From Pseudomonadota bacterium (GTDB taxonomy: Bacteria > Desulfobacterota > Binatia > UBA9968), in the NCBI GenBank assembly GCA_021324155.1, contig JAJPJQ010000042.1, forward strand, positions 62,001 through 126,000: a stretch of 64,000 nt of DNA, given 5' to 3'. The position numbers were made by a program, and so were the translations under genes. Position 1 is the first letter of the stretch; each line of letters starts with the position of its first letter. The notes under the pieces were generated by a model that saw only the letters and a program-made list of their open reading frames with translations, had not been told where the DNA came from and made no database searches. Below are positions 33,929 through 47,223 of the stretch, piece after piece.

Positions 33929-34954
33929 ATGGCGAAGTTCCGCGTCAAGTATTTCGGCAGCAACGACGTTCCGGTCCAGCTCATCAAGCCGATTCTCGAT
34001 GAGATCGACGCCGAGATGATCATCGCCAACCCGCGCAGCGAGGCAGAGGTCGCCGAAGCCGGCCGCGACGCCGACGGCATCATCATGCACGGCTCGGTGC
34101 CATTCACGCGCGAGATCATTTCGCAGCTCAAGCGCACCAAGGTCGTGTGCCGCACCGGCGTCGGCGTCGACCGTATGGACCTCGCCGCGGCGGAGGAGTT
34201 CGGCATCAAGGTCTGCAACGCGGCAGGCTGCAACTCGATCGAAGTCTCCGAGCAGGCGATCGGCCTTCTGATCGCGGTCTCGCGCAAGCTCGTGCGCATG
34301 AATCAATACGTGCGCGAGGGGCGCTGGCGTCGGCACACCGCCGAGCTGCACGCCTACCGCGGCCCGGTCTCGCGCATTATGGGAAAGACGCTCGGCATCG
34401 TCGGCCTCGGCCATGTCGGCCGACAGGTCGCGCCGCGCGCGCAAGGTTTGAGATTAAACGTGCAGGCGGTCGATCCTTATCTCGATCCGAAGATCGCGCA
34501 CGAGATGAACGTGAAGCTCGTCTCGTTCGACGATCTCGTGCGGAACTCCGACTTCATCAGCGTGCACGCGCCGCTCACCAGCCAGACCCGGAAGATGTTC
34601 GGCGCGGCGCAGTTCGCCGCCATGAAGCCGACGGCGTATCTGATCAACTGCGCGCGCGGCGGCCTCGTCGATACCGAGGCGCTTTACGACGCGCTGGTCG
34701 CGGGCAAAATCGCCGGCGCCGCGCTCGACGTCACCGACCCCGAGCCGCTGCCGGCGGACCACAAGATTCTTACGCTGCCGAACGTGATCGTCACCTGCCA
34801 CACGGCCGCGAACTCGAACGAATCCTACGTCGACTGCCAGACGCACGCCGCGCGCGAAGTCGCGCGCGTGCTTTCCGGCAAGCCGCCGACGACCGAAGTC
34901 AAAGACCCTTGGCTTCTCGCCGAAGCCCAGGATCAGGGCTTCGGCGGCGTCTGA
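33929..34954 (+). CDS. D-2-hydroxyacid dehydrogenase, CtBP/SerA-like
   Basis: A 341-residue NAD-dependent oxidoreductase. The cofactor motif KTLGIVGLGHVGRQVAPRA lies near 153-171. The catalytic Arg is in INCARGGLVDTEAL, and Glu/His follow (VIVTCHTAANSNES). It lacks the ACT domain of SerA, so a CtBP/formate-dehydrogenase-like 2-hydroxyacid enzyme is more likely. Coupled to the amidohydrolase before it, it probably reduces or oxidises a catabolic 2-hydroxyacid. Its last 22 bases overlap the cytochrome gene's end, tail to tail. Confidence 0.9.
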   Translation: MAKFRVKYFGSNDVPVQLIKPILDEIDAEMIIANPRSEAEVAEAGRDADGIIMHGSVPFTREIISQLKRTKVVCRTGVGVDRMDLAAAEEFGIKVCNAAGCNSIEVSEQAIGLLIAVSRKLVRMNQYVREGRWRRHTAELHAYRGPVSRIMGKTLGIVGLGHVGRQVAPRAQGLRLNVQAVDPYLDPKIAHEMNVKLVSFDDLVRNSDFISVHAPLTSQTRKMFGAAQFAAMKPTAYLINCARGGLVDTEALYDALVAGKIAGAALDVTDPEPLPADHKILTLPNVIVTCHTAANSNESYVDCQTHAAREVARVLSGKPPTTEVKDPWLLAEAQDQGFGGV

Positions 34955-36852
34955 GCCGGCCCGGCGCTCAACAGATAGCGAATCAAATCCACCTGATCTT
35001 TCGCACTGTAGCCTCCGTCCGCGTCGACCCAGAACTCGTGGCCGATGCCGCGCACGTTCACGCGTTTGAGACGCGCGTCGTCCTGATTGGCGCTTACCAC
35101 GCGCGCGCGCACGGTTCGATCGACGAGCGCGAGCAGGCTGTTCGCCGGATCAGCTGCGATTCCCTTGAGCAGCGTTCCCGGGACGCCGATCTCGCTCGTC
35201 GGGTTTTTTCCCACCGCGACGCCGCCGTCGTGAAGATAGGGCGCAGTCCAGCGAAGGCCGACGAGCGCCGGCACCTTGTATCCCCCAGCGCCGTCCCAGG
35301 CGAACGCCCGCTCTAAATCGCCTTTATCGATGCCGTCGGTCGGCACATCGAGAACAACAGGTTTTTGCGGCAGCGGCACGGGTTGATTGAGCGCGAATAA
35401 CACCGGCGGCGCGAACGTACCTTCCGTGCGGGCGAGCGCCTGCGCCCGCACGGGATCGGTGCCGATGAGGGCCGCCGGCACGACGCGATGATTCGTGAGG
35501 GCGGGACCTTGATGGCACTCGTCGCAGCGCGCGCGCTCGAAGACCTGCCGGCCGGATTGCATTTGCTGAGGCGCTTCGCCGACGCGCGGCGGCGTCAAGG
35601 AATTCTCCCACGCCGCGATCGCGTCGACGTCTTCCCATATTTTGCCACCGGGAACGCTCGCGAGAAGCCCGTCGGGCGCGAGGATCGAGCCTTTCGGGAA
35701 ATGCGGCAGTTCCACCGTATGATTGAGTCCGAAGCCGCCGGGCGTAGGATCGACCGCTCTGAGAAACTCGGACGGCTTGCGGCCGGACTTCGGGTCGAAG
35801 CGGAATTTTTTCCGCGGCGCGTTCTGCAGCACCAGCGCGATGTAGAGTTCCGGGTCGAGCCCGAACATGGACTGCGCGAGGTACGCGTCCGTCAATGAAT
35901 CTGAATTGAGCGCGTGGACGTTGTTGTTGAGCGAGCTCAGACCGCCAAACGGACCCGCGGCGGCGAAGCCGCTCCAGCCGTACGGATAGGCTTCGCGAGT
36001 GAAAGACGACGGGATCTGCGTCGGAGCGGCCTTGAAGTCGATCATCGAGTCGAAATAGCCGGGCGGCCACGCGAGCAGCGCCGCGTCGACCGCGCGCTCG
36101 AAGATTCCCCGGTCGGGCAGCGGGATCTCTGTATGATCCGCCGAGAGGACTTGCCGACCCGCCGGCAGCACATACTTCGAGAGGTCGCTCACGTCGGTAT
36201 GAAAAAAATATGCTGCGCTGTTGGTCGCGAGCGCGAGCAGCAGCCCCGCGTTCAGATCGGTATTTGGCGCGCCGTGCACGACCTTCTTGGTCTCGGGATC
36301 GACCGTCGAATGACACACGGCGCACGTCATGCCGACGCGAATTCTTGCGCCGCGTTTGACGATCTTCATGCCGAGCGGCGCGTAGGCGCCCTTGGCGACG
36401 TCGAGACCCGTATCGATGAGCGAGCCCTTGGCGAACTCGCGGCCGCCGACATTCATCGTTCGCCTCACTTCCAGTTGCAAATTCGTCGTTCCCGCGCCGC
36501 GGAGCTTCATCAGTGCCTTGGCGAACGAATACACCGTCAGCGGGCCGTCGATAACGCCGAGCACGTCGGTCAAGAAAATTTCATCGCCGAAAGTCTCCCC
36601 GTAGAACGCTTCGCGGCCGCGGCGGACCGTCGCCTCGTCGACGCGCACCAGCGCGCCCGCGGATGGAACGGAGACCGCGCCGGCTTCCGCCTCCGAGAGA
36701 GTTCTGCCCCACAAGTCGTAAGTCACCGGCTGAGTCGCTTCTGTATTCAGCGCGTCCGCATCCGAAGGCACGTACACGTAATCGAACGGAATCAAATAGA
36801 TCGCGAGCGCCAGTGCGGCGAGCGCGAGAAGTGCGGGGATGTACGGCTTCAT
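34933..36852 (-). CDS. Exported diheme c-type cytochrome
   Basis: A 639-residue protein anchored by one N-terminal membrane helix (residues 5-24, IPALLALAALALAIYLIPF). Two c-type heme motifs are visible: CAVCH (177-181) and CDECH (443-447), 266 residues apart. The region QIPSSFTREAYPYGWSGFA and the C-terminal VPALVGLRWTAPYLHDG resemble the cytochrome c peroxidase-like diheme family, where the phrase P.L.G.R...PYLHDG is common. It faces the periplasm. The partner is unknown. No quinol or heme-maturation genes are close. Convergent overlap with the dehydrogenase gene. Confidence 0.8.
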   Translation of the reverse strand: MKPYIPALLALAALALAIYLIPFDYVYVPSDADALNTEATQPVTYDLWGRTLSEAEAGAVSVPSAGALVRVDEATVRRGREAFYGETFGDEIFLTDVLGVIDGPLTVYSFAKALMKLRGAGTTNLQLEVRRTMNVGGREFAKGSLIDTGLDVAKGAYAPLGMKIVKRGARIRVGMTCAVCHSTVDPETKKVVHGAPNTDLNAGLLLALATNSAAYFFHTDVSDLSKYVLPAGRQVLSADHTEIPLPDRGIFERAVDAALLAWPPGYFDSMIDFKAAPTQIPSSFTREAYPYGWSGFAAAGPFGGLSSLNNNVHALNSDSLTDAYLAQSMFGLDPELYIALVLQNAPRKKFRFDPKSGRKPSEFLRAVDPTPGGFGLNHTVELPHFPKGSILAPDGLLASVPGGKIWEDVDAIAAWENSLTPPRVGEAPQQMQSGRQVFERARCDECHQGPALTNHRVVPAALIGTDPVRAQALARTEGTFAPPVLFALNQPVPLPQKPVVLDVPTDGIDKGDLERAFAWDGAGGYKVPALVGLRWTAPYLHDGGVAVGKNPTSEIGVPGTLLKGIAADPANSLLALVDRTVRARVVSANQDDARLKRVNVRGIGHEFWVDADGGYSAKDQVDLIRYLLSAGPAQTPPKP

Positions 36853-36961: not shown

Positions 36962-37825
36962 ATGGCTCGAGGTTGGGGCATAATCGATGTCGCGTGCGCG
37001 GTGCTGATCGCGCTTGGCACGGCGACGAACGCGGCGGAGACGACGCGCGAGAAGACGCCGATCGATGGGATCGAAGACAACAGTTTCTTGATCGAAGAGG
37101 CGTACAACCAGGACCCGGGCGTCGTGCAGCACATCTTCAACGCGATTTACGTGAACGACCCCAAGAACCGCGGCTGGTCGTTCAGCTTCACGCAGGAATG
37201 GCCGCTCTACGGCCTGGAGCATCAAATTTCTTTTACGATTCCGTCGTTCGCGCTACGCCAGGAGGGCGAGCGAGTCCGCGGCATCGGCGATATGCTCATC
37301 AACTATCGCTACCAGCTGCTGGAAGAAAATGACTGCGTGCCGGCGTTCGCGCCGCGCTTCAGCTTGATCTTGCCGACCGGCAACCGCCGCAACGGCACCG
37401 GCAACGGCGTCGTCGGCTATCAGTGGCAGCTCCCGTTCAGCAAGAAATTCCCGCCGCGTCTGGCGGCGCACGCCAATCTCGGCCTTACGTATCTTCCAGG
37501 CGTTCGCGGAGTGCTCGACTCGGGAGACCTGTCGCCGAAGCATGCGCTCGTCTCCTACAATCTCGGCGCGAGCGGAATCTATGCGATCACGTCGCGACTG
37601 CATGCGATGCTCGAATGGGTCGGCACGTTCGAGGAGAATCTCACCGGCAACGGCCGGGCCAAGCGCGATTTCGTGGCGATCATCTCGCCGGGGGTGCGCG
37701 CGGCGGTGGTGGACGAAGAGGAATTGCAGATCGTGACGGGCGTCGGCTTGCCGATCGGCATCACCAAGCCGGCCGACAACTTCGGCGTGTTTTTATACTT
37801 CTCGGTCGAGCACAAGCTCTGGTAG
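36962..37825 (+). CDS. Outer-membrane beta-barrel protein, MetA-phenol-pathway-like
   Basis: A 287-residue exported protein with signal peptide (ACAVLIALGTATNA). The mature part is built of alternating amphipathic strands, with G-D-M-L-I-N-Y-R-Y, FAPRFSLILPTGN and final F-terminal strands ending in aromatic residues (FLYFSVEHKLW), typical of outer-membrane barrels. The pattern resembles the transporter family annotated as MetA-pathway of phenol degradation. It may pass hydrophobic compounds across the outer membrane. It starts head-to-head with the cytochrome gene and ends at a strong terminator. Confidence 0.65.
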   Translation: MARGWGIIDVACAVLIALGTATNAAETTREKTPIDGIEDNSFLIEEAYNQDPGVVQHIFNAIYVNDPKNRGWSFSFTQEWPLYGLEHQISFTIPSFALRQEGERVRGIGDMLINYRYQLLEENDCVPAFAPRFSLILPTGNRRNGTGNGVVGYQWQLPFSKKFPPRLAAHANLGLTYLPGVRGVLDSGDLSPKHALVSYNLGASGIYAITSRLHAMLEWVGTFEENLTGNGRAKRDFVAIISPGVRAAVVDEEELQIVTGVGLPIGITKPADNFGVFLYFSVEHKLW

Positions 37826-37901: not shown

Positions 37902-38720
37902 TTACTTGCTTCGCGTCGCGCTCCAGTTGCCGCCCCCGCCCTTCGCCGTGCCTTCCATCTTGTCGCCGCTTACGTGGCCGCTGTACTGCGCCTCGCCGGC
38001 GGTAAAAGTGATCTGCTCACCTCGCAGGCGACCTTTGACAGGAACGCTCTTGCCGCCGCTCTTCAGCGTGCCTGAAATCATCTGAAACTGCTGCTTGATG
38101 TCGAGCTCGCCCTGCGGCAGCTTCCAGGTGCCCTGGACTTTCGCCGGCACGATCCAGAAATGCGCCGTGCACCACGACGTGCATCCGTTCGTGACATTCG
38201 CGGTCTCATCGTCCTCCCATTCGCCCATTGTGAACGAATTCGATACGACGCGCGTGCCCGGCTTCATGTCGAGGATCTTCGGACGAAGCTTCAGGTTGAT
38301 ATCGGGCAGCAGAAACATCGTGATGACCGTGGCTTTGGAAAAATCAGTTTCGAAAAGGTCGGCCTTCATGAATTGCGCCTTCTCGCCGACGCCTGCCTTT
38401 TCGGCGTTGCGCTTGGACAATTCCACCATGTCGGGATTGTATTCGATGCCCATCGCGCGCGCGCCGCGCTTCGCGGCGGTGATGACGGTCCTGCCGTCGC
38501 CCGAGCCCAGGTCGATGACGTAATCCTGCGGCGTCACTTTCGCGAGGTCGAGCATCTTATCGACCAGCGCCTGCGGAGTGGGTACCCAGACGACGTCTTT
38601 GCCTTCCTGCCCGACCTGCGGCTTGAATTCCTCTTTCGCGGGCTGCGCTCCGAGCGGGCCGGCGAGCAGCAGCACCGCAAACGCGCAAACCCAAGCATGC
38701 AACTTACCGGATCGTCTCAT
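37902..38720 (-). CDS. Exported SAM-methyltransferase-like protein
   Basis: A 272-residue protein with a clear signal peptide (about residues 8-26, WVCAFAVLLLAGPLGAQ), then a class I methyltransferase domain. Motif I DYVIDLGSGDGRTVITAA (D70) and the acidic residue in AMGIEYNPDM (E93) are both intact. An additional C-terminal beta-rich ~80 residues (ISGTLKSGGKSVPVKGRLRG) resembles a lipocalin-like or stress-domain tail. SAM is a cytoplasmic cofactor, so an exported enzyme is odd; it may be a pseudo-enzyme. A short conserved Cys-rich GCTSWCTAHF lies between. Substrate unknown. Confidence 0.8.
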   Translation of the reverse strand: MRRSGKLHAWVCAFAVLLLAGPLGAQPAKEEFKPQVGQEGKDVVWVPTPQALVDKMLDLAKVTPQDYVIDLGSGDGRTVITAAKRGARAMGIEYNPDMVELSKRNAEKAGVGEKAQFMKADLFETDFSKATVITMFLLPDINLKLRPKILDMKPGTRVVSNSFTMGEWEDDETANVTNGCTSWCTAHFWIVPAKVQGTWKLPQGELDIKQQFQMISGTLKSGGKSVPVKGRLRGEQITFTAGEAQYSGHVSGDKMEGTAKGGGGNWSATRSK

Positions 38721-38859: not shown

Positions 38860-39810
38860 ATGCGCGAGAAAAATGAAAAGAAGGGCATCTTCAATTTTGT
38901 CACGGCGTCCGTCGAGAACTGGCTCGACGAAGGACCGTTCCAGCTCGCCGCGGCGCTCGCTTATTACACGCTGTTCTCGCTCTCGCCCCTACTGATCATC
39001 CTAACGGCCATCGTGGGATCGCTGGCCGGCGAGACGACTGCGCAGGACTATATTTACAATTCCATCAGTGGGTTGGTGGGAGAGCAGAGCGCTAGGGCCG
39101 TGATGGAAATGATGCAAAAAGCCCATCACGATGGCGGCGGCCTCTCGGCCACGATCTTCGGCATCGCCCTGCTGCTCTTCGGCGCGGGCGGCGTTGTTGG
39201 CCAGCTCCAGTCTTCGCTGAATACGATCTGGGGCGTCGAGACAGACTCGCGTAACGGCATCTGGCCGATCATCCGCGCCCGGTTTATTTCCTACGCGATG
39301 CTGCTCGCGATCGGCTTTCTGCTCCTGGTGTCGCTCATGGTCACGACGGCGGTCTCGGCGCTGAGCGATTATCTAAGAAATCTGCTGCCCGCCGTCGGCG
39401 CGATTTGGCCCGCGGTCGACATCGCCATCTCCTTCGGCTTTGTGACGATTCTGTTTGCGTTGATCTATAAATTCCTGCCCGACGTCAAAATCGCCTGGCG
39501 CGATGTCTGGGTCGGCGCAGCGCTGACGGCGCTGCTTTTCAGTATCGGTAAGCTGTTGATCGGTCTGTACCTGGCCAAAAGCGCGGTCAGTTCCACCTAC
39601 GGCGCCGCGGGCTCGATCGTGACCGTTCTTTTGTGGGTGTACTATTCGTCGCTCGTCTTTTTTTTCGGCGCCGAGGTGACGCGCGTATACGCGACGCAGT
39701 ACGGCCGCGGCCTCAAGCCGACGGAGATCGCCGCGCCGACGCACAACGGGCTCAAGAAAGAGAAGAAAATCGAAAAGGCAAATCCCGACGCCGAAAAGCG
39801 TCAGGGCTGA
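38860..39810 (+). CDS. YihY/BrkB-family integral membrane protein
   Basis: A 316-residue inner-membrane protein with about six hydrophobic segments, including the family's FQLAAALAYYTLFSLSPLLI (about residues 27-46). Once called RNase BN, the family is now thought not to be a nuclease; the function is unknown. The C-terminal tail is lysine-rich and cytoplasmic. It starts divergently from the methyltransferase gene, leaving a 139-base spacer, and its end overlaps the lipase gene by 10 bases. Confidence 0.9.
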   Translation: MREKNEKKGIFNFVTASVENWLDEGPFQLAAALAYYTLFSLSPLLIILTAIVGSLAGETTAQDYIYNSISGLVGEQSARAVMEMMQKAHHDGGGLSATIFGIALLLFGAGGVVGQLQSSLNTIWGVETDSRNGIWPIIRARFISYAMLLAIGFLLLVSLMVTTAVSALSDYLRNLLPAVGAIWPAVDIAISFGFVTILFALIYKFLPDVKIAWRDVWVGAALTALLFSIGKLLIGLYLAKSAVSSTYGAAGSIVTVLLWVYYSSLVFFFGAEVTRVYATQYGRGLKPTEIAAPTHNGLKKEKKIEKANPDAEKRQG

Positions 39811-40538
39811 TGCGCCAGCTCCGCGCCGCGCGCGAGGCGCTCGGCGATAATGCGGTAAACCGCCGCCGAAAAGCCGAGCCCGACGTGGGTCGTCGCGACT
39901 TCGACGTGCTCGACGTTGGCGCAGCCACGGTCGATGCATGCTTCCCAGGCGACGACCGCGTCGCGACGCGAATAGATCGCTGTTACCGGAATCGTCAGCG
40001 CAGTCTGATTGCGCAGCGCCACCTCGGCGGCCATGGCGTCGATGTCGATGCCGCGGCGCCGCATCGCGTGGACGATCACGGTGTATTTCGGTCCGCCGAT
40101 CACCGGCGTGCCCAAGGTTATGATCTGGCTTACGAGGTCGGGCCGTTCGCGCGCCGCCTCGCGCGCGAGATACCCGCCGAGGCTCCAGCCGACGATTTGC
40201 ACCGGCTGGCCCGTGCTGCGGTGCTGCGATACCAGGCGACGCAAGACGCGCACCAGCATCGCCGGCACGTCGAGATTTTTTTTACTGCCGATGCCTCTGA
40301 CGCGATAGCCGAGAAACCGGAGATAATTTCGCAGCAGAACAGTAGTCAGGTCGCCGACACGGTAGCCGGGAACCACCAGCACCGGCTCGCCATGGCCGTG
40401 CGGCAGCCGGGCGAGCGACGGCAGATTCAAGACGAGCCGCGGCAATTCGAACAGGCCGCGCGCTTCGCGAAAGAGCCCGGACGGCGCGGGCGCCTCGAGC
40501 GCTTCGATCATTTTCTCCATTTCGCTCGCCGATGCCAT
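39801..40538 (-). CDS. Alpha/beta hydrolase (lipase/PGAP1-like)
   Basis: About 245 residues from an ATG one base after the preceding stop (40540); the in-frame start 14 codons earlier would overlap that gene. The nucleophile elbow is GWSLGG (in QIVGWSLGGYLAREA), preceded by VLVVPGYRVGD (oxyanion region), and TLGTPV follows. Later Asp and His are expected near YSRRDAVVAWEA and ATTHVGLGFS. No signal peptide is seen. Likely an esterase or lipase. It is the end of the membrane/exported cluster on this strand. Confidence 0.8.
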   Translation of the reverse strand: MASASEMEKMIEALEAPAPSGLFREARGLFELPRLVLNLPSLARLPHGHGEPVLVVPGYRVGDLTTVLLRNYLRFLGYRVRGIGSKKNLDVPAMLVRVLRRLVSQHRSTGQPVQIVGWSLGGYLAREAARERPDLVSQIITLGTPVIGGPKYTVIVHAMRRRGIDIDAMAAEVALRNQTALTIPVTAIYSRRDAVVAWEACIDRGCANVEHVEVATTHVGLGFSAAVYRIIAERLARGAELAHQP

Positions 40539-40539
40539 C

Positions 40540-41577
40540 TTACTGGATACCCGCTGCGGCGAGGTAGCGCAGATCGACAAAGCGCTCCGCGGCGGGCAGC
40601 GGCCTTTTCAGCGTACCGGCTTCGCCCATATAGTCAATCACGCGCGCAAGGCCTGTGACGTTGATTTCACCCTGCTTCGGCAGCACTCCCCGCTCCGGGT
40701 CGAAAAAAAGTTTGAGGGACTGTTCGGCGGCCGCGTTCGAGGCGTCGGTCGCCTCGACGACCGCTTTCACGGCCGCGCCGCGCTTGGCCGGGTCGCGGAT
40801 AAACTTAAACGCCGCGGCCAAACCGCGCGCATAGCGGACGAGCGCATCCTTGTGCGCATCGGCCCAGGAGCGCCGCGCGGCGGTAACGGTATAAAGCAGC
40901 TCGGGAACCACTTCCGTCGAGAGACCGAGCACGCGGCAGCCTTTCTCGACGGCAGAGAAGTCCTGCGGTTGCCCGAGCGGCACCGCATCGCACTCGCCGC
41001 GCACGAGGCACTGGTAGCGCGCGGGCGTTCCCTCGATAATCTTAACGCGAAAATCGGCGGGCTTGAGCCCATGGAGCGCCAGCAGCTTTCGCGTCGAGAT
41101 CGTGATCGTTCCGGCCTCGTCCGCCAGGCCGATAAGCTTGCCTTTGAGATCTGTGAAGCTGTTAATGCCGGGCTTCGCGACGAGACTGTAGATCGGATTA
41201 TTGAATTCAGCGGCGATGGCTGCGGCGTCCGAGCCGGCGAGCGCCGCGCGGATGAGAAACGGCGTCGCGACATGCGTCACATCGGCGGTGTCGTCGTGGA
41301 GCGCCTCGATCATCTTGTCGGCGCCGCCGGGGATCGGCACGACGACCTTGAAGTCCAGACCTTCGCGGCGAAAAAAACCTTCGCGGTCGCCGATAACGAT
41401 CGGCAATGAAAAGACGCTGCGGAGCGACGAATACGCCTGCGCGTAGCGGAGCGGAATCGTTTGGTCGGCTGCCGCCGCCTCGAATGCCGCAAAAAGAATG
41501 ACTAGGAGAAAGGCAGCGCCGGATGCAAGCTTGGCGATGCGCGTGGCTATTTTCCTCCGACCCGCTGCATCGTGCAT
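40540..41577 (-). CDS. ABC transporter substrate-binding protein (NMT1/SsuA-like)
   Basis: About 345 residues from the ATG at 41577, with a hydrophobic N-terminal signal (GAAFLLVILFAAFEAAAAD). The periplasmic binding fold is recognisable: LPIVIGDREGFFRREGLDF, DVTHVATPFLIRAAL, LKGKLIGLADEAGT and LALHGLKPADFRVKIIE. No permease or ATPase lies adjacent. It overlaps the small carboxypeptidase-regulatory-like gene by 31 bases. One possibility is that its ligand serves a sensor or redox protein encoded upstream rather than an ABC importer. Confidence 0.8.
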   Translation of the reverse strand: MHDAAGRRKIATRIAKLASGAAFLLVILFAAFEAAAADQTIPLRYAQAYSSLRSVFSLPIVIGDREGFFRREGLDFKVVVPIPGGADKMIEALHDDTADVTHVATPFLIRAALAGSDAAAIAAEFNNPIYSLVAKPGINSFTDLKGKLIGLADEAGTITISTRKLLALHGLKPADFRVKIIEGTPARYQCLVRGECDAVPLGQPQDFSAVEKGCRVLGLSTEVVPELLYTVTAARRSWADAHKDALVRYARGLAAAFKFIRDPAKRGAAVKAVVEATDASNAAAEQSLKLFFDPERGVLPKQGEINVTGLARVIDYMGEAGTLKRPLPAAERFVDLRYLAAAGIQ

Positions 41578-41936
41578 TCGGTCTCCACGGCGATGACGGG
41601 TTGCTTGCTGACCGGCGTGCGCCTCAACGAGCGGGTCTGCTGGTAGCCCTCTTTGCTGCACGAGATGACGACTTTATCCGGCGTGATCTCCTTGCCGAAG
41701 CCGGGAAGCTTATAAGAGCCGGCGGCCGTGGTGCGCGTGATCACGGTGCCGCGACCCTTGATGTCGGCCGTCACCTTCGCATCGCCGATCGCTCTTCCCG
41801 AGGTATCCTTGACGAAGCCGAAGTACGTCGGCCCGTTGTCCTCGTGGACGTCCGGCTGGTCGTCGCTGCCTCCGGCCCATACGGTAACCGGCAGCAACAG
41901 CGCGACAGCGAGCAAGTGCAGGATGAAAAAATGCAT
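41547..41936 (-). CDS. Exported carboxypeptidase-regulatory-like domain protein
   Basis: About 129 residues from the ATG at 41936, which puts a signal peptide first (FFILHLLAVALLLPVTVWAG). The mature part is one beta-sandwich, with the pattern YFGFVKDTSGRAIGDAKVTA and a later GSYKLPGFG, as in the CarboxypepD_reg domain (PF13620-type). Two cysteines (ISCSKEGY, TECTMQ) may pair. The same domain heads both propeller/cytochrome proteins upstream in this cluster, so it may bind a shared partner or surface. Longer upstream starts would overlap a membrane gene and are not used. Confidence 0.65.
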   Translation of the reverse strand: MHFFILHLLAVALLLPVTVWAGGSDDQPDVHEDNGPTYFGFVKDTSGRAIGDAKVTADIKGRGTVITRTTAAGSYKLPGFGKEITPDKVVISCSKEGYQQTRSLRRTPVSKQPVIAVETECTMQRVGGK

Positions 41937-41944
41937 GGGCGAGC

Positions 41945-42283
41945 TTACCGAATGAAATAGCCCCTGAGAATATATCCGAATACCGCCATGACAGCCAGCG
42001 GTACGGCCCACGACCAGCCGGACCAGATTCGCGCGGTCCACGCGGCGGGAAGCGCGGCGGCAATCAACGCCAGCGCGAAAGCGCCGAGCGCGGATGTCGC
42101 CAACCAGCCGTACCAGTACATAGCCGGCTGATCCGCCGCGGGCTTCACCAGCCAGTGAAATTCCTCGCTCGCTGGGTGATACGTGAAGAGCGCGAGATTG
42201 TATTGGATCGCGATCACATAGAGAACGGCGTAAGCGGCGGCGAAGGCGATGGCGAAAACGGCGAAGGACCGGCCCGACATCAT
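41945..42283 (-). CDS. Three-helix membrane protein, unknown
   Basis: About 112 residues from the ATG overlapping the upstream stop (ATGA, 42280-42283). Three hydrophobic segments are visible (about residues 8-30, 58-80 and 88-106). A periplasm- or cytosol-facing segment YHPASEEFHWLVKPAADQPAM-type (with H36 and H43) lies between the first two. I recognise no family. The context suggests it forms a complex with the four-helix protein encoded just before it. An earlier in-frame start is only read-through of that gene. Confidence 0.65.
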   Translation of the reverse strand: MMSGRSFAVFAIAFAAAYAVLYVIAIQYNLALFTYHPASEEFHWLVKPAADQPAMYWYGWLATSALGAFALALIAAALPAAWTARIWSGWSWAVPLAVMAVFGYILRGYFIR

Positions 42284-42741
42284 GCTTCGAATCCCCTGAT
42301 GTTGTTCAGCACGTGGCCGACGATGAATCCCCACCACACGATGAACGCGAGCAGCGCGGTGAGAACGGCGCGCGTGCGCGTGTAGTCGGTCAGCGGCTGG
42401 CGCCAGAAATACCAATACGCCGGCAGCATCCCCAGGCCGAGCGCGACGAAATGCTCTTTCAGCTCGAAGGAGCCGTTCGCCTTGGCGAGCTGCATCTGCT
42501 CGAGCACGATGCGCACGTTCAGACGATAGCTCGGATAGATGATCGCCCCGAGCGCGGCCGTAGCGACGTACAACACGATGATGGCGCCGGCGTATGTGGA
42601 CGGCGAGACCGAGCGCATGCGGGCGACGAAAGAATCCGACGGCCGCTTTGCCGGCGTCCAGACGCCGATTGTCTGATGCGTGATCGCGCCGAGCAGCGTG
42701 ACCGCCATGAGCGCGTGCGCGATCAGGAGGAGGACGATCAT
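42280..42741 (-). CDS. Four-helix membrane protein with buried histidines
   Basis: A 153-residue protein with four hydrophobic segments (about 1-24, 50-70, 95-110 and 125-148). Histidines fall in or at the ends of helices 1, 3 and 4: H9 and H22, H97, H143. Such spacing resembles membrane-bound b-type cytochromes, where His pairs hold heme, but this is inference. YPSYR near residue 69 is an aromatic/positive cap. ATGA coupling to the three-helix gene suggests a two-subunit membrane unit, sitting beside c-heme proteins in the same operon. Confidence 0.7.
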   Translation of the reverse strand: MIVLLLIAHALMAVTLLGAITHQTIGVWTPAKRPSDSFVARMRSVSPSTYAGAIIVLYVATAALGAIIYPSYRLNVRIVLEQMQLAKANGSFELKEHFVALGLGMLPAYWYFWRQPLTDYTRTRAVLTALLAFIVWWGFIVGHVLNNIRGFEA

Positions 42742-42786
42742 CGGTCGCGAATTCTATCTAAGCGCATGCCGAGCGTCAATCGGCTA

Positions 42787-43788
42787 TCAGCGGCAGCTCA
42801 TCGGCGGCCGGTAGACCTGATGGATCGTCGAGCCGCTCGCGCCGCCCTGCGTCAGACCGCCGCCCGGCAGATGAATGTTGCCGTCGATGAAGGCGAGCCC
42901 GGTGACGCCGTGGACGGCGACCGGCATCGGATCGAGTTTATGCCAGGTATCCCTTACCGGATCGTAATAATCGTGGTCGGGAAAAACGTGGTACGGATGG
43001 TCGGGGTTGCCTTCGCCGCCGAAGAGATGGAAACAGCCGTTCGCGAATATCCCGTTGACGCCGCCGCGCGGCTTCAGCAGCTTGCTGCGCTTGCTCCAGC
43101 CGTTCGTTTTCGGATCGTAGACTTCGACGGCGTCGGTCCGCTCGCTTTGAAAGCCGCCGCCGAACCTGCCGCCGAAGACATAGACTTTGCCGTCGAGCGC
43201 GCCCGCCGCTAAATGGTTTCGCTGCGTCGGCAGGTCCGGCAGCTTCGTCCACGCATCCACGCTCGGATCGTAGACCGCGAAATGATGTCCCGCGGGCGGG
43301 CGGCCGCCCGCCACATAGATTTTCCCGCCGACGACCGCCGCCGCACCGCCGCTGCGCGCGGTCGGCATCGGCGCCTTCGTTACCCAGCGATTGGCGCTGG
43401 GGTCGTATTCATAAACCGTGTTGACGAAGCCCGCTTTGTCGGGATCGCTCTGCTCCGAGGACTGGCCGCCGATGACGTAGATCTTGCCGCCGGCCGCGGC
43501 GGGCATGACATGATTGAGCGGCACAGGCAGCGGCGCGGCGGTCTGCCATTTGTCGGCGCGCGAATCGTAGACCAAAACCGTCGCGACCGTTTTGCGGTCC
43601 CACGGATAACCGCCGATGACGTAAATTTTTCCGTCGAGCTCGGCGACGCCGGTCTCGGAGTTCGCCGCGATCAGCGGCGCGCGCAGAGTCCAGGAAAACT
43701 TCTCCTGCGGCGCGGCCGCCGCGCCAGCCAAATGCGAATGAACGACGAAGAGAGCCGCCATCAACAGCGTACAGCTTAAAACTTTCAT
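42787..43788 (-). CDS. Exported kelch-repeat beta-propeller protein
   Basis: A 333-residue protein with signal peptide (VLSCTLLMAALFVVHSHLAG). About six kelch repeats follow, each with a GGKIYVIGG- or GKVYVFGG-type strand, then an aromatic (Y.YDP.T..W) strand: examples near KIYVIGGYPW, KIYVIGGQSS, KIYVAGGRPP and KVYVFGGRFG. The fold is a beta-propeller as in galactose-oxidase-like proteins, but no copper ligands are evident. Function unknown. It follows the propeller/cytochrome gene by 20 bases. Confidence 0.85.
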   Translation of the reverse strand: MKVLSCTLLMAALFVVHSHLAGAAAAPQEKFSWTLRAPLIAANSETGVAELDGKIYVIGGYPWDRKTVATVLVYDSRADKWQTAAPLPVPLNHVMPAAAGGKIYVIGGQSSEQSDPDKAGFVNTVYEYDPSANRWVTKAPMPTARSGGAAAVVGGKIYVAGGRPPAGHHFAVYDPSVDAWTKLPDLPTQRNHLAAGALDGKVYVFGGRFGGGFQSERTDAVEVYDPKTNGWSKRSKLLKPRGGVNGIFANGCFHLFGGEGNPDHPYHVFPDHDYYDPVRDTWHKLDPMPVAVHGVTGLAFIDGNIHLPGGGLTQGGASGSTIHQVYRPPMSCR

Positions 43789-43808
43789 CGCGCTCTCGTC
43801 CGATCAAA

Positions 43809-45473
43809 CTACTTAAGCACCTCGACGTAGCCCATCCGCCCGGACAGATTTCCCGACCACCAGATGCGGTTCGGGTTGGTTGGATCGACCTCGATCCGGC
43901 GCGGATCGGATTCCGCGCTCGCCAGAGGATATTCCGTGAATTTCTCGGTTTTGATATCGAAACGCGCGATCTTATCCACGTGCTGCTCGCTGAACCAGAC
44001 GATCGGCGCCTTCGGATCGCCCTGGACCGAGTAGACGCCGGCGTCCGCGCTCGGCGGATCGAAGACCGTCATCTTGGTCGTCTTGTAATCGACTTTCATG
44101 AGCTTGCCGACGCCATGGAGACCGACCCAGACGTTGCCTTCGAGATCCATGCCGCCTTTCCGCGCGACGGGATTTTTCACGAAGATCGGATACTCGTCGA
44201 TCGAGCCGCTGGCGGGATCGATGCGGCCCATTTGATTGACGGCGTTCTCGATGAACCAGACCTTGCCGTCGCCGGATATCGCCATGCCGTAGGGGCTGGC
44301 CGTCTTGCCACGCTTGATGCCTGCCGGCACATCGTAGACCGTGAACTCTTTCGTCTTGGGGTCGAGCCGGATCACCTGGTTCGCGGCGATGGAATTGAGC
44401 CAGACGGTGCCGTCCGGGTGAACGCGCATCGTATTGCCGCTCGCGGATCCGCTCTTCAACTTGGGCAGCTCGTAGACTTCGAACTGCTTGTTCTTGGGGT
44501 CGTAGCTGAGCCACCGCCGGTTCGGGCCGCCGTCGATGAACCAGAGCTTGCCGTCGGGCGCGCGGTTGATCGCGTTCAGGCGATTCGTCGGCGATATGCC
44601 GGCCGGCGGCGCGATCTCGGAATAAGTCAACGCTTTTCCATCGAGACGGCCGAGCTTGCCGCCGACACGCTGCGTGACCCAGCCGTTGCCCTCAAGATCG
44701 ACCGCGACCTCGTGCGGCTCGGCCGTGTTGTTCGGCAGCTCGAACTCGACCGCGACGTACTTCATTGCGTCGCCTTTGACGAGCTCGCGCGGCAGGCGGC
44801 TGTTCGCGTCCGGCTTCGGCCTACCGCCGACGCTCGACTCGGAGAAGTTCGCGAGCGCGTATTCGAAAACGGTTGTCGCTTCTTCGTCCGTCAGCGGTTT
44901 CGCCGCCGTCGAGCCCTGCGCATACATACGCATGTTGTTGAGGATAGTCTGCCAGCGCTCGCGGCTCGCGCGCACCCGGGTGATACGCTGCGTGTCGTGA
45001 CAAGCGACGCACTTGGCTTCCATGATCGGCTTGCCTGCGCCGTCGGGCAGCGGCGGAGGCGGCGGCCCTTCGCCTCCCTCGCCCACCTGCTCGCCGGGCA
45101 GCCGGCCGGGCCAGGCAGGCGCGAGCGCCGGCGCGCGCCCTGTTGCGAGCGTGAGATTCACCGTCGCGGGTTTGCCGGCGGCGACATCGACCGGCGCCGA
45201 CAACCCGCTTTGACGCTCGCCGCCGATCGCTTGCAGCACATACTTGCCGCTCGGAAGGTTGGCGAGTGAGTAGCGACCTTGCGCCTGGCTCACAACCATG
45301 AAGGTAAGGCGACGCTCTTCATTACTCATCTTGACGAACGCGCCGGCGACCGGCGATCCCGACCCGTCTTTAACGACTCCGGTCACGCTGCCGGAGCGGT
45401 CCTGAGCCGCCGCGGCGCACGGCAGCATAAAGAGGAACGCGGCAACAAAGATTCCCTTATACCGTATGTGCAT
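43809..45473 (-). CDS. CarboxypepD_reg / cytochrome c / Vgb-like propeller protein
   Basis: A 554-residue exported protein. Order: signal peptide (1-23), carboxypeptidase-regulatory-like sandwich (about 28-112, VTGVVKDGSGSPVAGAFV), a Pro/Gly-rich linker, a one-heme c-type segment with KCVACH (C155, C158, H159) and a later MRMY methionine that may be the distal ligand, then a propeller (about 225-545) with repeated GKVWFIEN-, GTVWLNSI- and GNVWVGLHG-type strands as in the virginiamycin B lyase (Vgb) group. It is a paralogue of the gene just upstream. No lyase activity should be assumed. Confidence 0.8.
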   Translation of the reverse strand: MHIRYKGIFVAAFLFMLPCAAAAQDRSGSVTGVVKDGSGSPVAGAFVKMSNEERRLTFMVVSQAQGRYSLANLPSGKYVLQAIGGERQSGLSAPVDVAAGKPATVNLTLATGRAPALAPAWPGRLPGEQVGEGGEGPPPPPLPDGAGKPIMEAKCVACHDTQRITRVRASRERWQTILNNMRMYAQGSTAAKPLTDEEATTVFEYALANFSESSVGGRPKPDANSRLPRELVKGDAMKYVAVEFELPNNTAEPHEVAVDLEGNGWVTQRVGGKLGRLDGKALTYSEIAPPAGISPTNRLNAINRAPDGKLWFIDGGPNRRWLSYDPKNKQFEVYELPKLKSGSASGNTMRVHPDGTVWLNSIAANQVIRLDPKTKEFTVYDVPAGIKRGKTASPYGMAISGDGKVWFIENAVNQMGRIDPASGSIDEYPIFVKNPVARKGGMDLEGNVWVGLHGVGKLMKVDYKTTKMTVFDPPSADAGVYSVQGDPKAPIVWFSEQHVDKIARFDIKTEKFTEYPLASAESDPRRIEVDPTNPNRIWWSGNLSGRMGYVEVLK

Positions 45474-45495
45474 AGGCTTCTCCCGGTGGAAATAA

Positions 45496-45526
45496 AAAGG
45501 CCCGAGCCATGGAGGCTCGGGCCTTT
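45496..45526 (-). terminator. Intrinsic terminator after the upstream propeller/cytochrome gene
   Basis: A 13-bp perfect stem (AAAGGCCCGAGCC, loop ATGGA, GGCTCGGGCCTTT) lies 9 bases beyond the stop of the 45535-47223 gene. On the minus strand it is followed by TTATTTCC. It may reduce read-through into the second paralogue. Confidence 0.75.
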
Positions 45527-45534
45527 GTGAGTCC

Positions 45535-47223
45535 TTAACGACTCGCCGTCTCGGCGTTCCGCTCCTGCGGCTCCAGCTTGAGCACCGAGGCTCCGTGGTT
45601 GCTGCCCACCCAGAAAGTCACCGGCGTCGTTGAGTTGTCGATGAAAACGCGACGGATGTTCGTCTCGCGCGGCAGCAGATACTCCGTTACGTTTCCGGTC
45701 TTGGGGTTAAGCCGCGCGACGCGATCGGTCCACATCGAGCCCGCCCAAACGTCGCCGTTTTTGTCCGGCACGACATGATACGGCGCGCTCCACGGCGTTG
45801 CGAGCTTCCATTCCTGGATCTTCTCGGTCTTCGGATCGAGCATGCCGATGCCGTTCGCGCCGTATTCGGCGAACCACAGCCGCCCCTGCTCATCGAAGCG
45901 GCCGCGCCGCGGCCGGGAGCCGGCGGTCACGGTCGAATATACCTTGAATTCCTTCGTCTTCGCGTCGATGCGTCCGATATTGTTCGCGCCGAATTCCAAG
46001 AGATAGAGGTTATTCTGCGCGTCGGACGGGATGCCGTAGGCGTTGATCGTGCGATTCGCGCCCGGGATTGGGAACTCGCCCAGATTTTCAAACTGGCCCG
46101 AGGCGATATCCAGGCGGTAAATCGCGTGCGTGTCCTGGTTATTGGTCCACACTTTGCCGTCGACGTGCGAGCTCGACGCGCTCACCATTGACTGCTGCGT
46201 GTGATCGCCCTGCCATTCCTTCGGGATCGGATAGACCTGGAACTTCTCCGCCTTGCGGTCGAACTTGGCGATGCCGCCCTGGTACATGAGCGACACCCAC
46301 AGGTTCTCGTCCTTGTCCAGTTGCAGGTCGAGCGTGCCCATCGGGAAGCCCTTCTTCAGCACCGGGATCGGAAAGTCCGTCACGTTGCCGGTTTTCGGAT
46401 CGAGCTTGCCGATGAACTGATCGCCGAAGTCCGAATACCAAACGGCGCCGCTCGAATCGACGACAACGTCGTGCGGCATCGCGATCGGCCGAGGCAGATC
46501 GTATTCCGTCACGATGACTTTGGTCGCGGCGCCTTTGGGCCGCGGCAACGTCTTATACGCGATCTTTTTCTGGTTGTAGGCGACGTTAACGCTCGCGAGC
46601 CAGTCGGCGATGACTTTCGGGTCGAATCCCCGCGTCCGGTCACGCTGGATCGCGCCGACGGTCATCTGCGGCCGGACCGGCTGGCTGCCGGGCGCGTACA
46701 TCGACATTCTGCGGAAGATCTGCACCCATTCGTCCGAGCTATGATTGCCTTTGACGATCCGCTCGATCGTGTGGCAGCCGTTGCAGCCAAGCAGGAAATT
46801 TTTCTGCGCGTCGGTGCCGGGAATGCTCAGCAGCCACTCGGCATCGCTCAATTGCACCGAAATGTCTTTCGCGGGTCGGAGCTTGAGATTGGCGGTCGCC
46901 GGTTTGCCGCCCGAGATCTCAATCGACTTGGGCGCATCGAGCTCGTATCCCGCCGCGCGGACCTTAATGGCGTAGCGGCCCGGCGACAATTTGGAAGTCG
47001 GAAAGCTGAATCGGCCTTTTTCGTCGCTTGTGACGTTGACGGTGATCGTCGAGCCTTCCTTCTTGGCGCCGATGACAACACCCTCCATCGGCCCTTCCTT
47101 GGCCGACGTCACTTGTCCCGAGAGCGCGGCCGCCATGTCGTTCGCGCGGACGGCGACCGGGACGGCGGATAACGCAACGAGCGCGAGCGCTGGAACGATC
47201 GCGCGCAAAGTCAGCTTCGGCAT
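45535..47223 (-). CDS. CarboxypepD_reg / cytochrome c / Vgb-like propeller protein, paralogue
   Basis: A 562-residue exported protein with the same order as its downstream neighbour: signal peptide (1-28), a carboxypeptidase-regulatory-like domain (about 32-115, LSGQVTSAKEGPMEGVVIG), a c-heme motif GCNGCH (C147, C150, H151) with a downstream MSMY methionine, and a propeller (about 210-550; GAVWYSDFG, ENLWVSLMYQG, GRLWFAEYG, GDVWAGSMW). The two heme segments share the local pattern W..I...M.MYA.GS, so they arose by duplication. A strong AGGAGGAGG lies four bases before the ATG. Confidence 0.82.
   Translation of the reverse strand: MPKLTLRAIVPALALVALSAVPVAVRANDMAAALSGQVTSAKEGPMEGVVIGAKKEGSTITVNVTSDEKGRFSFPTSKLSPGRYAIKVRAAGYELDAPKSIEISGGKPATANLKLRPAKDISVQLSDAEWLLSIPGTDAQKNFLLGCNGCHTIERIVKGNHSSDEWVQIFRRMSMYAPGSQPVRPQMTVGAIQRDRTRGFDPKVIADWLASVNVAYNQKKIAYKTLPRPKGAATKVIVTEYDLPRPIAMPHDVVVDSSGAVWYSDFGDQFIGKLDPKTGNVTDFPIPVLKKGFPMGTLDLQLDKDENLWVSLMYQGGIAKFDRKAEKFQVYPIPKEWQGDHTQQSMVSASSSHVDGKVWTNNQDTHAIYRLDIASGQFENLGEFPIPGANRTINAYGIPSDAQNNLYLLEFGANNIGRIDAKTKEFKVYSTVTAGSRPRRGRFDEQGRLWFAEYGANGIGMLDPKTEKIQEWKLATPWSAPYHVVPDKNGDVWAGSMWTDRVARLNPKTGNVTEYLLPRETNIRRVFIDNSTTPVTFWVGSNHGASVLKLEPQERNAETASR

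Follow-up and report, generated by a model that had tools for sequence, protein, structure and literature searches.

A block of three genes (D, E and F), together with a lone binding-protein gene beside F, is a conserved core in two soil lineages that are assigned to different phyla. The most likely reading of this core, and of the propeller-cytochrome genes that usually accompany it, is a new cytochrome-propeller oxidation module; the mechanism proposed below is moderately likely. The module is real, conserved and apparently undescribed; compared with the genes that the first-pass annotation had combined into one system, it is a smaller and partly different group. These genes were found in the window, i.e., the whole 64-kb stretch of DNA that was analyzed:

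Gene A, 45535..47223 (-): 562 aa; signal peptide, CarboxypepD_reg, cytochrome c (CNGCH) and seven-bladed Vgb-type propeller (Pfam)
Intrinsic terminator between A and B, 45496..45526 (-): 13-bp stem, -27.3 kcal/mol, z -7.75
Gene B, 43809..45473 (-): 554 aa; architecture as in A, heme motif CVACH (Pfam, AlphaFold2, PDB match)
Gene C, 42787..43788 (-): exported kelch propeller (Pfam)
Promoter-like site just before D, 42751..42779 (-): TTGACG-17-TAGAAT, a consensus match only
Gene D, 42280..42741 (-): 153 aa, four-helix membrane protein (profile alignment, hydropathy)
Gene E, 41945..42280 (-): 111 aa, three-helix membrane protein; overlaps the stop codon of D
Gene F, 41547..41936 (-): 129 aa, exported, CarboxypepD_reg-like
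Gene G, 40540..41577 (-): exported NMT1-type substrate-binding protein (Pfam)
Gene H, 39801..40538 (-): alpha/beta hydrolase (Pfam)

Seven or eight genes running in one direction had been described, and eight minus-strand ORFs were confirmed, all with coding-like third-position GC (0.76-0.87). The identification of two CarboxypepD_reg-cytochrome-Vgb propeller proteins (A and B, each with one CxxCH and 28% identical to each other), a kelch propeller (C), a three-helix membrane protein (E) and a substrate-binding protein (G) was borne out. F, described as a lone CarboxypepD_reg protein, scored 29.0 bits with the Pfam CarboxypepD_reg profile, below the cut-off of 32.3, and can be called CarboxypepD_reg-like. 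The protein listed as a lipase (H) is an alpha/beta hydrolase, probably cytoplasmic, in which no signal peptide was seen by eye. Neither D nor E matched a Pfam or NCBIfam family above the cut-off. The start of G is probably the ATG at 41577, overlapping F, and not 41661; that of H is probably at 40538. No ABC permease was found near G, and the window gave no Rfam or tRNA hit.

Gene A is a transcription unit apart, ending at the A/B terminator, and B to H may form one transcription unit with an internal start. A terminator-like site was also found 3' of H. The A/B terminator, the promoter-like site before D and this last site indicate that genes A-H are not one simple transcription unit; promoter- and terminator-like sites in the region are about as numerous as in shuffled sequence.

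Recurrence of the D-E-F block

A search was performed in 97 relatives, including the 25 genomes of the window's family, and in samples of the class, order and phylum. D was found in five of the 97 relatives, the window's own genome counted, and all five are members of the family (5/25). In every genome with D (8/8; five of the family and three of a distant order), D, E and F were contiguous, and this recurrence in eight genomes indicates that their association is more than chance. G directly followed F in four of the five family loci, i.e., wherever the contig continues; in the fifth (G024), the contig stops inside F, and a G orthologue starts at the edge of another contig. G orthologues with at least 64% identity were confined to the D-bearing genomes of the family, the rest of which showed at most 57%. 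A tblastn search of D in plasmids gave no match.

Directly upstream of D, an A orthologue was found in G012 and a B orthologue in G024. G009 and G020 contain D-E-F-G with no propeller gene directly upstream, and the G009 contig extends only about 540 bases there. Orthologues of A or B also occur alone in three D-less genomes (G008, G010 and G527). Across both phyla, a CarboxypepD_reg/cytochrome c/propeller protein (A, B or a diverged homologue) was adjacent in five of the seven testable D loci. In all seven, F had a binding protein beside it: an NMT1-type protein in the loci of the window's family, and one of the SBP_bac_3 (amino-acid-binding) type in those of the distant order. Because the genomes of the family are so rich in NMT1-type genes (a first look gave 237 candidates in the window's genome), a neighbouring binding protein counts for little as evidence when taken by itself. 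Neither C nor H was detected at any other D locus. The gene set thus recurs in part: each testable locus has D-E-F and a binding protein, most also have a propeller-cytochrome, and the full eight were not found elsewhere. Treating the eight genes as a single system was therefore given up; a terminator also parts A from B, and H is probably outside the module.

In G012, a fragment right after G (L074, 5407-5490) is 75% identical to the C-terminus of A and resembles a decayed second copy of A. In two genomes, a G-like binding protein (about 45%) lies directly upstream of an A-like propeller gene that is split or degenerate (L083, 5749-8506; L076, 312-1601).

The distant loci were detected with a profile of D. 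When 297 genomes were sampled from the phylum of the MAG 'Acidobacteria bacterium gp5', this profile gave a single full-length match (E 1.2e-49); in the order of that match, 162 genomes yielded three. No other genome sampled from the class or phylum contained D. Its distribution is patchy, and transfer between phyla is a plausible cause. On the minus strand of G705, the order is a 758-aa CarboxypepD_reg/CxxCH protein, a class I cytochrome c, an anchored CxxCH protein, D, E and F, with a convergent binding protein after F. G850 contains a membrane-anchored cytochrome, D, E, F and a convergent binding protein, and its propeller homologue is divergent. G900 contains D, E, F, a binding protein and an anchored cytochrome, and its contig ends just upstream of D. 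All three loci thus encode a CxxCH protein whose N-terminus carries a membrane segment. The best matches of their binding proteins were lysine/arginine/ornithine-binding models. With hhalign, the 758- and 705-aa neighbours in G705 and G850 could be aligned to A/B across 411 columns (probability 98.5, E 2e-15); a propeller is inferred in them from this alignment, and the Pfam propeller profiles gave no match. In the window's own genome, a distant relative of the acidobacterial anchored cytochrome (L120, 8039-8560) has neighbours that were read by eye as chromate-transporter-like. This indicates that the anchored cytochrome belongs to a general family and is not diagnostic.

Features of the propeller proteins and of D

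The AlphaFold2 model of B (pLDDT 76.9) combines a sandwich resembling CarboxypepD_reg with a helical heme domain and a propeller of seven blades. Its best PDB matches were the virginiamycin B lyases 2qc5 and 2z2o (Z about 37, rmsd 2.0-2.1 over 295-297 residues). In an alignment of 15 A/B sequences, the CxxCH motif, Met181, H254, Y395, R438 and Y481 were invariant and R525 nearly so; H254, Y395, R438, Y481 and R525 are residues of the propeller hub. Met181 is a possible sixth ligand of the heme. Apart from the c-heme, no catalytic cofactor was recognized, and no PQQ-family Pfam match was found in A, B or the acidobacterial homologues.

D had been described as a four-helix protein with histidines in three helices. 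The placement of the histidines held (H9/H22, H97 and H143), and the hydropathy profile showed three strong membrane segments and a weaker fourth. H9, H22 and H97 are invariant in all eight D sequences; H143 is kept in seven and is Glu in G705. The three that are invariant would be consistent with a heme or metal site. The AlphaFold2 model of D from five sequences was too poor to place the histidines (pLDDT 49) and was discarded; a PDB sequence search with D gave no match.

A possible periplasmic redox module and its rivals

We tentatively prefer a periplasmic electron-transfer module in which the propeller-cytochrome, a membrane exit made up of D and E, the F protein and the binding protein act together. 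The propeller hub would bind and oxidize a small compound; the fused c-heme would take an electron from the propeller and hand it on to D/E in the inner membrane, and a histidine-bound heme or metal in D may pass it towards quinone or the respiratory chain. In the acidobacterial version, the electron route would run via the extra soluble and anchored cytochromes. F may link the propeller protein to the D/E membrane pair, and the binding protein may deliver the substrate or aid enzyme assembly, as proposed for XoxJ/MxaJ. A periplasmic electron-transfer complex had been suggested for the eight genes; recurrence with propeller-cytochromes and the extra c-type cytochromes at the distant loci favour such a role. 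The Glu at H143 in one genome, the c-heme as the sole catalytic cofactor identified, the two loci with no propeller gene directly upstream and the A/B genes found alone count against the module. It is rather doubtful that we are dealing with a cross-phylum, undescribed class of periplasmic oxidoreductase, wherein a Vgb propeller with cytochrome c oxidizes the substrate, D/E serve as a minimal membrane acceptor and the binding proteins are interchangeable activators.

The same loci bear on a somewhat unlikely alternative, in which D-E-F and the binding protein alone are the functional unit and the propeller-cytochrome genes are an expanded family lying nearby by chance. G009 and G020, the solitary A/B orthologues and the terminator between A and B in the window are consistent with it. 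However, G012 and G024 have different paralogs immediately upstream of D, and in G705 and G850 a diverged homologue neighbours the block; since a genome offers at most about 14 matching places, repeated chance adjacency is unlikely by a rough estimate. D and E could instead relay a signal in a sensing or regulatory complex, the ligand or redox state being detected by the propeller together with the CarboxypepD_reg and binding proteins. The lone binding protein, the several beta-sandwich domains and the lack of a recognized catalytic cofactor would suit this role, but the unit contains no kinase, cyclase or receiver domain and electron flow better fits the extra cytochromes at the distant loci, which makes sensing unlikely. 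A four-helix D with a dedicated binding protein beside it is also loosely reminiscent of the TRAP/TTT transporters (a four-helix small subunit plus a binding protein). That D/E form a small binding-protein-dependent transporter is nevertheless quite unlikely: the large 12-helix subunit was absent from every locus read, and the invariant histidines and neighbouring cytochromes would be left unexplained.

The propeller could also be a non-redox enzyme (a lyase, hydrolase or alkylase similar to Vgb or CylK) with the cytochrome as an accessory domain. Similar to Vgb, the streptogramin B lyase, A and B have a seven-bladed propeller fold with a Pfam Vgb_lyase match, about 22% identity and, for B, the structural match given above. 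However, they carry the additional CarboxypepD_reg and cytochrome domains, and scores of 94 and 75 bits at best lie far below the curated NCBIfam score for VgbA/VgbB (600 bits). Vgb His228 and His270, which we take to be the catalytic residues of virginiamycin B lyase, are Tyr and Arg in every A/B-type sequence with residues aligned there. The Vgb active site is located in blades 6 and 7 (PMC8916777). CylK shows that Vgb-like propellers can host other chemistry, and its active site lies at the domain interface (PMC8916777). CylK and BrtB also resemble A/B in that a Vgb-like propeller is joined to another N-terminal domain; this is a Ca-binding domain in CylK/BrtB and a beta-sandwich plus cytochrome c in A/B, and the comparison covers the propeller only. 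Since neither the heme motif nor Met181 varies across the full-length alignment, a non-redox function is very unlikely.

Among the known redox systems, the methanol dehydrogenases MxaFGJ and XoxFGJ work in a way similar to the proposed redox module, in that a propeller, a c-type cytochrome and a periplasmic binding protein are encoded together; XoxJ has been proposed as an activator of XoxF (PMC7391723). In the module, both the propeller and the binding protein come from other families, and the D/E/F membrane block is added; thus, the parallel with XoxF-XoxG-XoxJ is one of design and not of membership. Assignment of the binding proteins to MxaJ/XoxJ was rejected, as G is NMT1/SsuA-like and the acidobacterial ones gave no match to the MoxJ model. 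The heme domain of B weakly resembles (E 0.02) the domain that binds haem in the alpha subunit of quinohemoprotein amine dehydrogenase. That subunit, however, has two c-type heme motifs, whereas A and B have one CxxCH each, and the tryptophylquinone small subunit of that enzyme was not apparent in the general annotation of the window genes. No paper joining Vgb, cytochrome and CarboxypepD_reg was found among the open-access papers searched.

D and E represent families with no Pfam or NCBIfam match above the cut-off, yet the block travels with cytochromes in two soil lineages. If D/E accept electrons from a propeller-cytochrome enzyme, they would be a new electron entry point into respiration; the redox module would also provide a testable role for part of the Vgb-like/CarboxypepD_reg propeller family.

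Three further genes of the window lie outside the eight. A minus-strand gene (34933-36852) encodes a 639-aa protein with two CxxCH motifs and a weak likeness to di-heme cytochrome c peroxidases, and divergent from it is the gene of a Phenol_MetA_deg-type outer-membrane protein (36962-37825, plus strand). The third (37902-38720, minus strand) encodes a methyltransferase whose N-terminus resembles a signal sequence; its orthologue in G705, in the other phylum, is 64% identical and located just past D-E-F.
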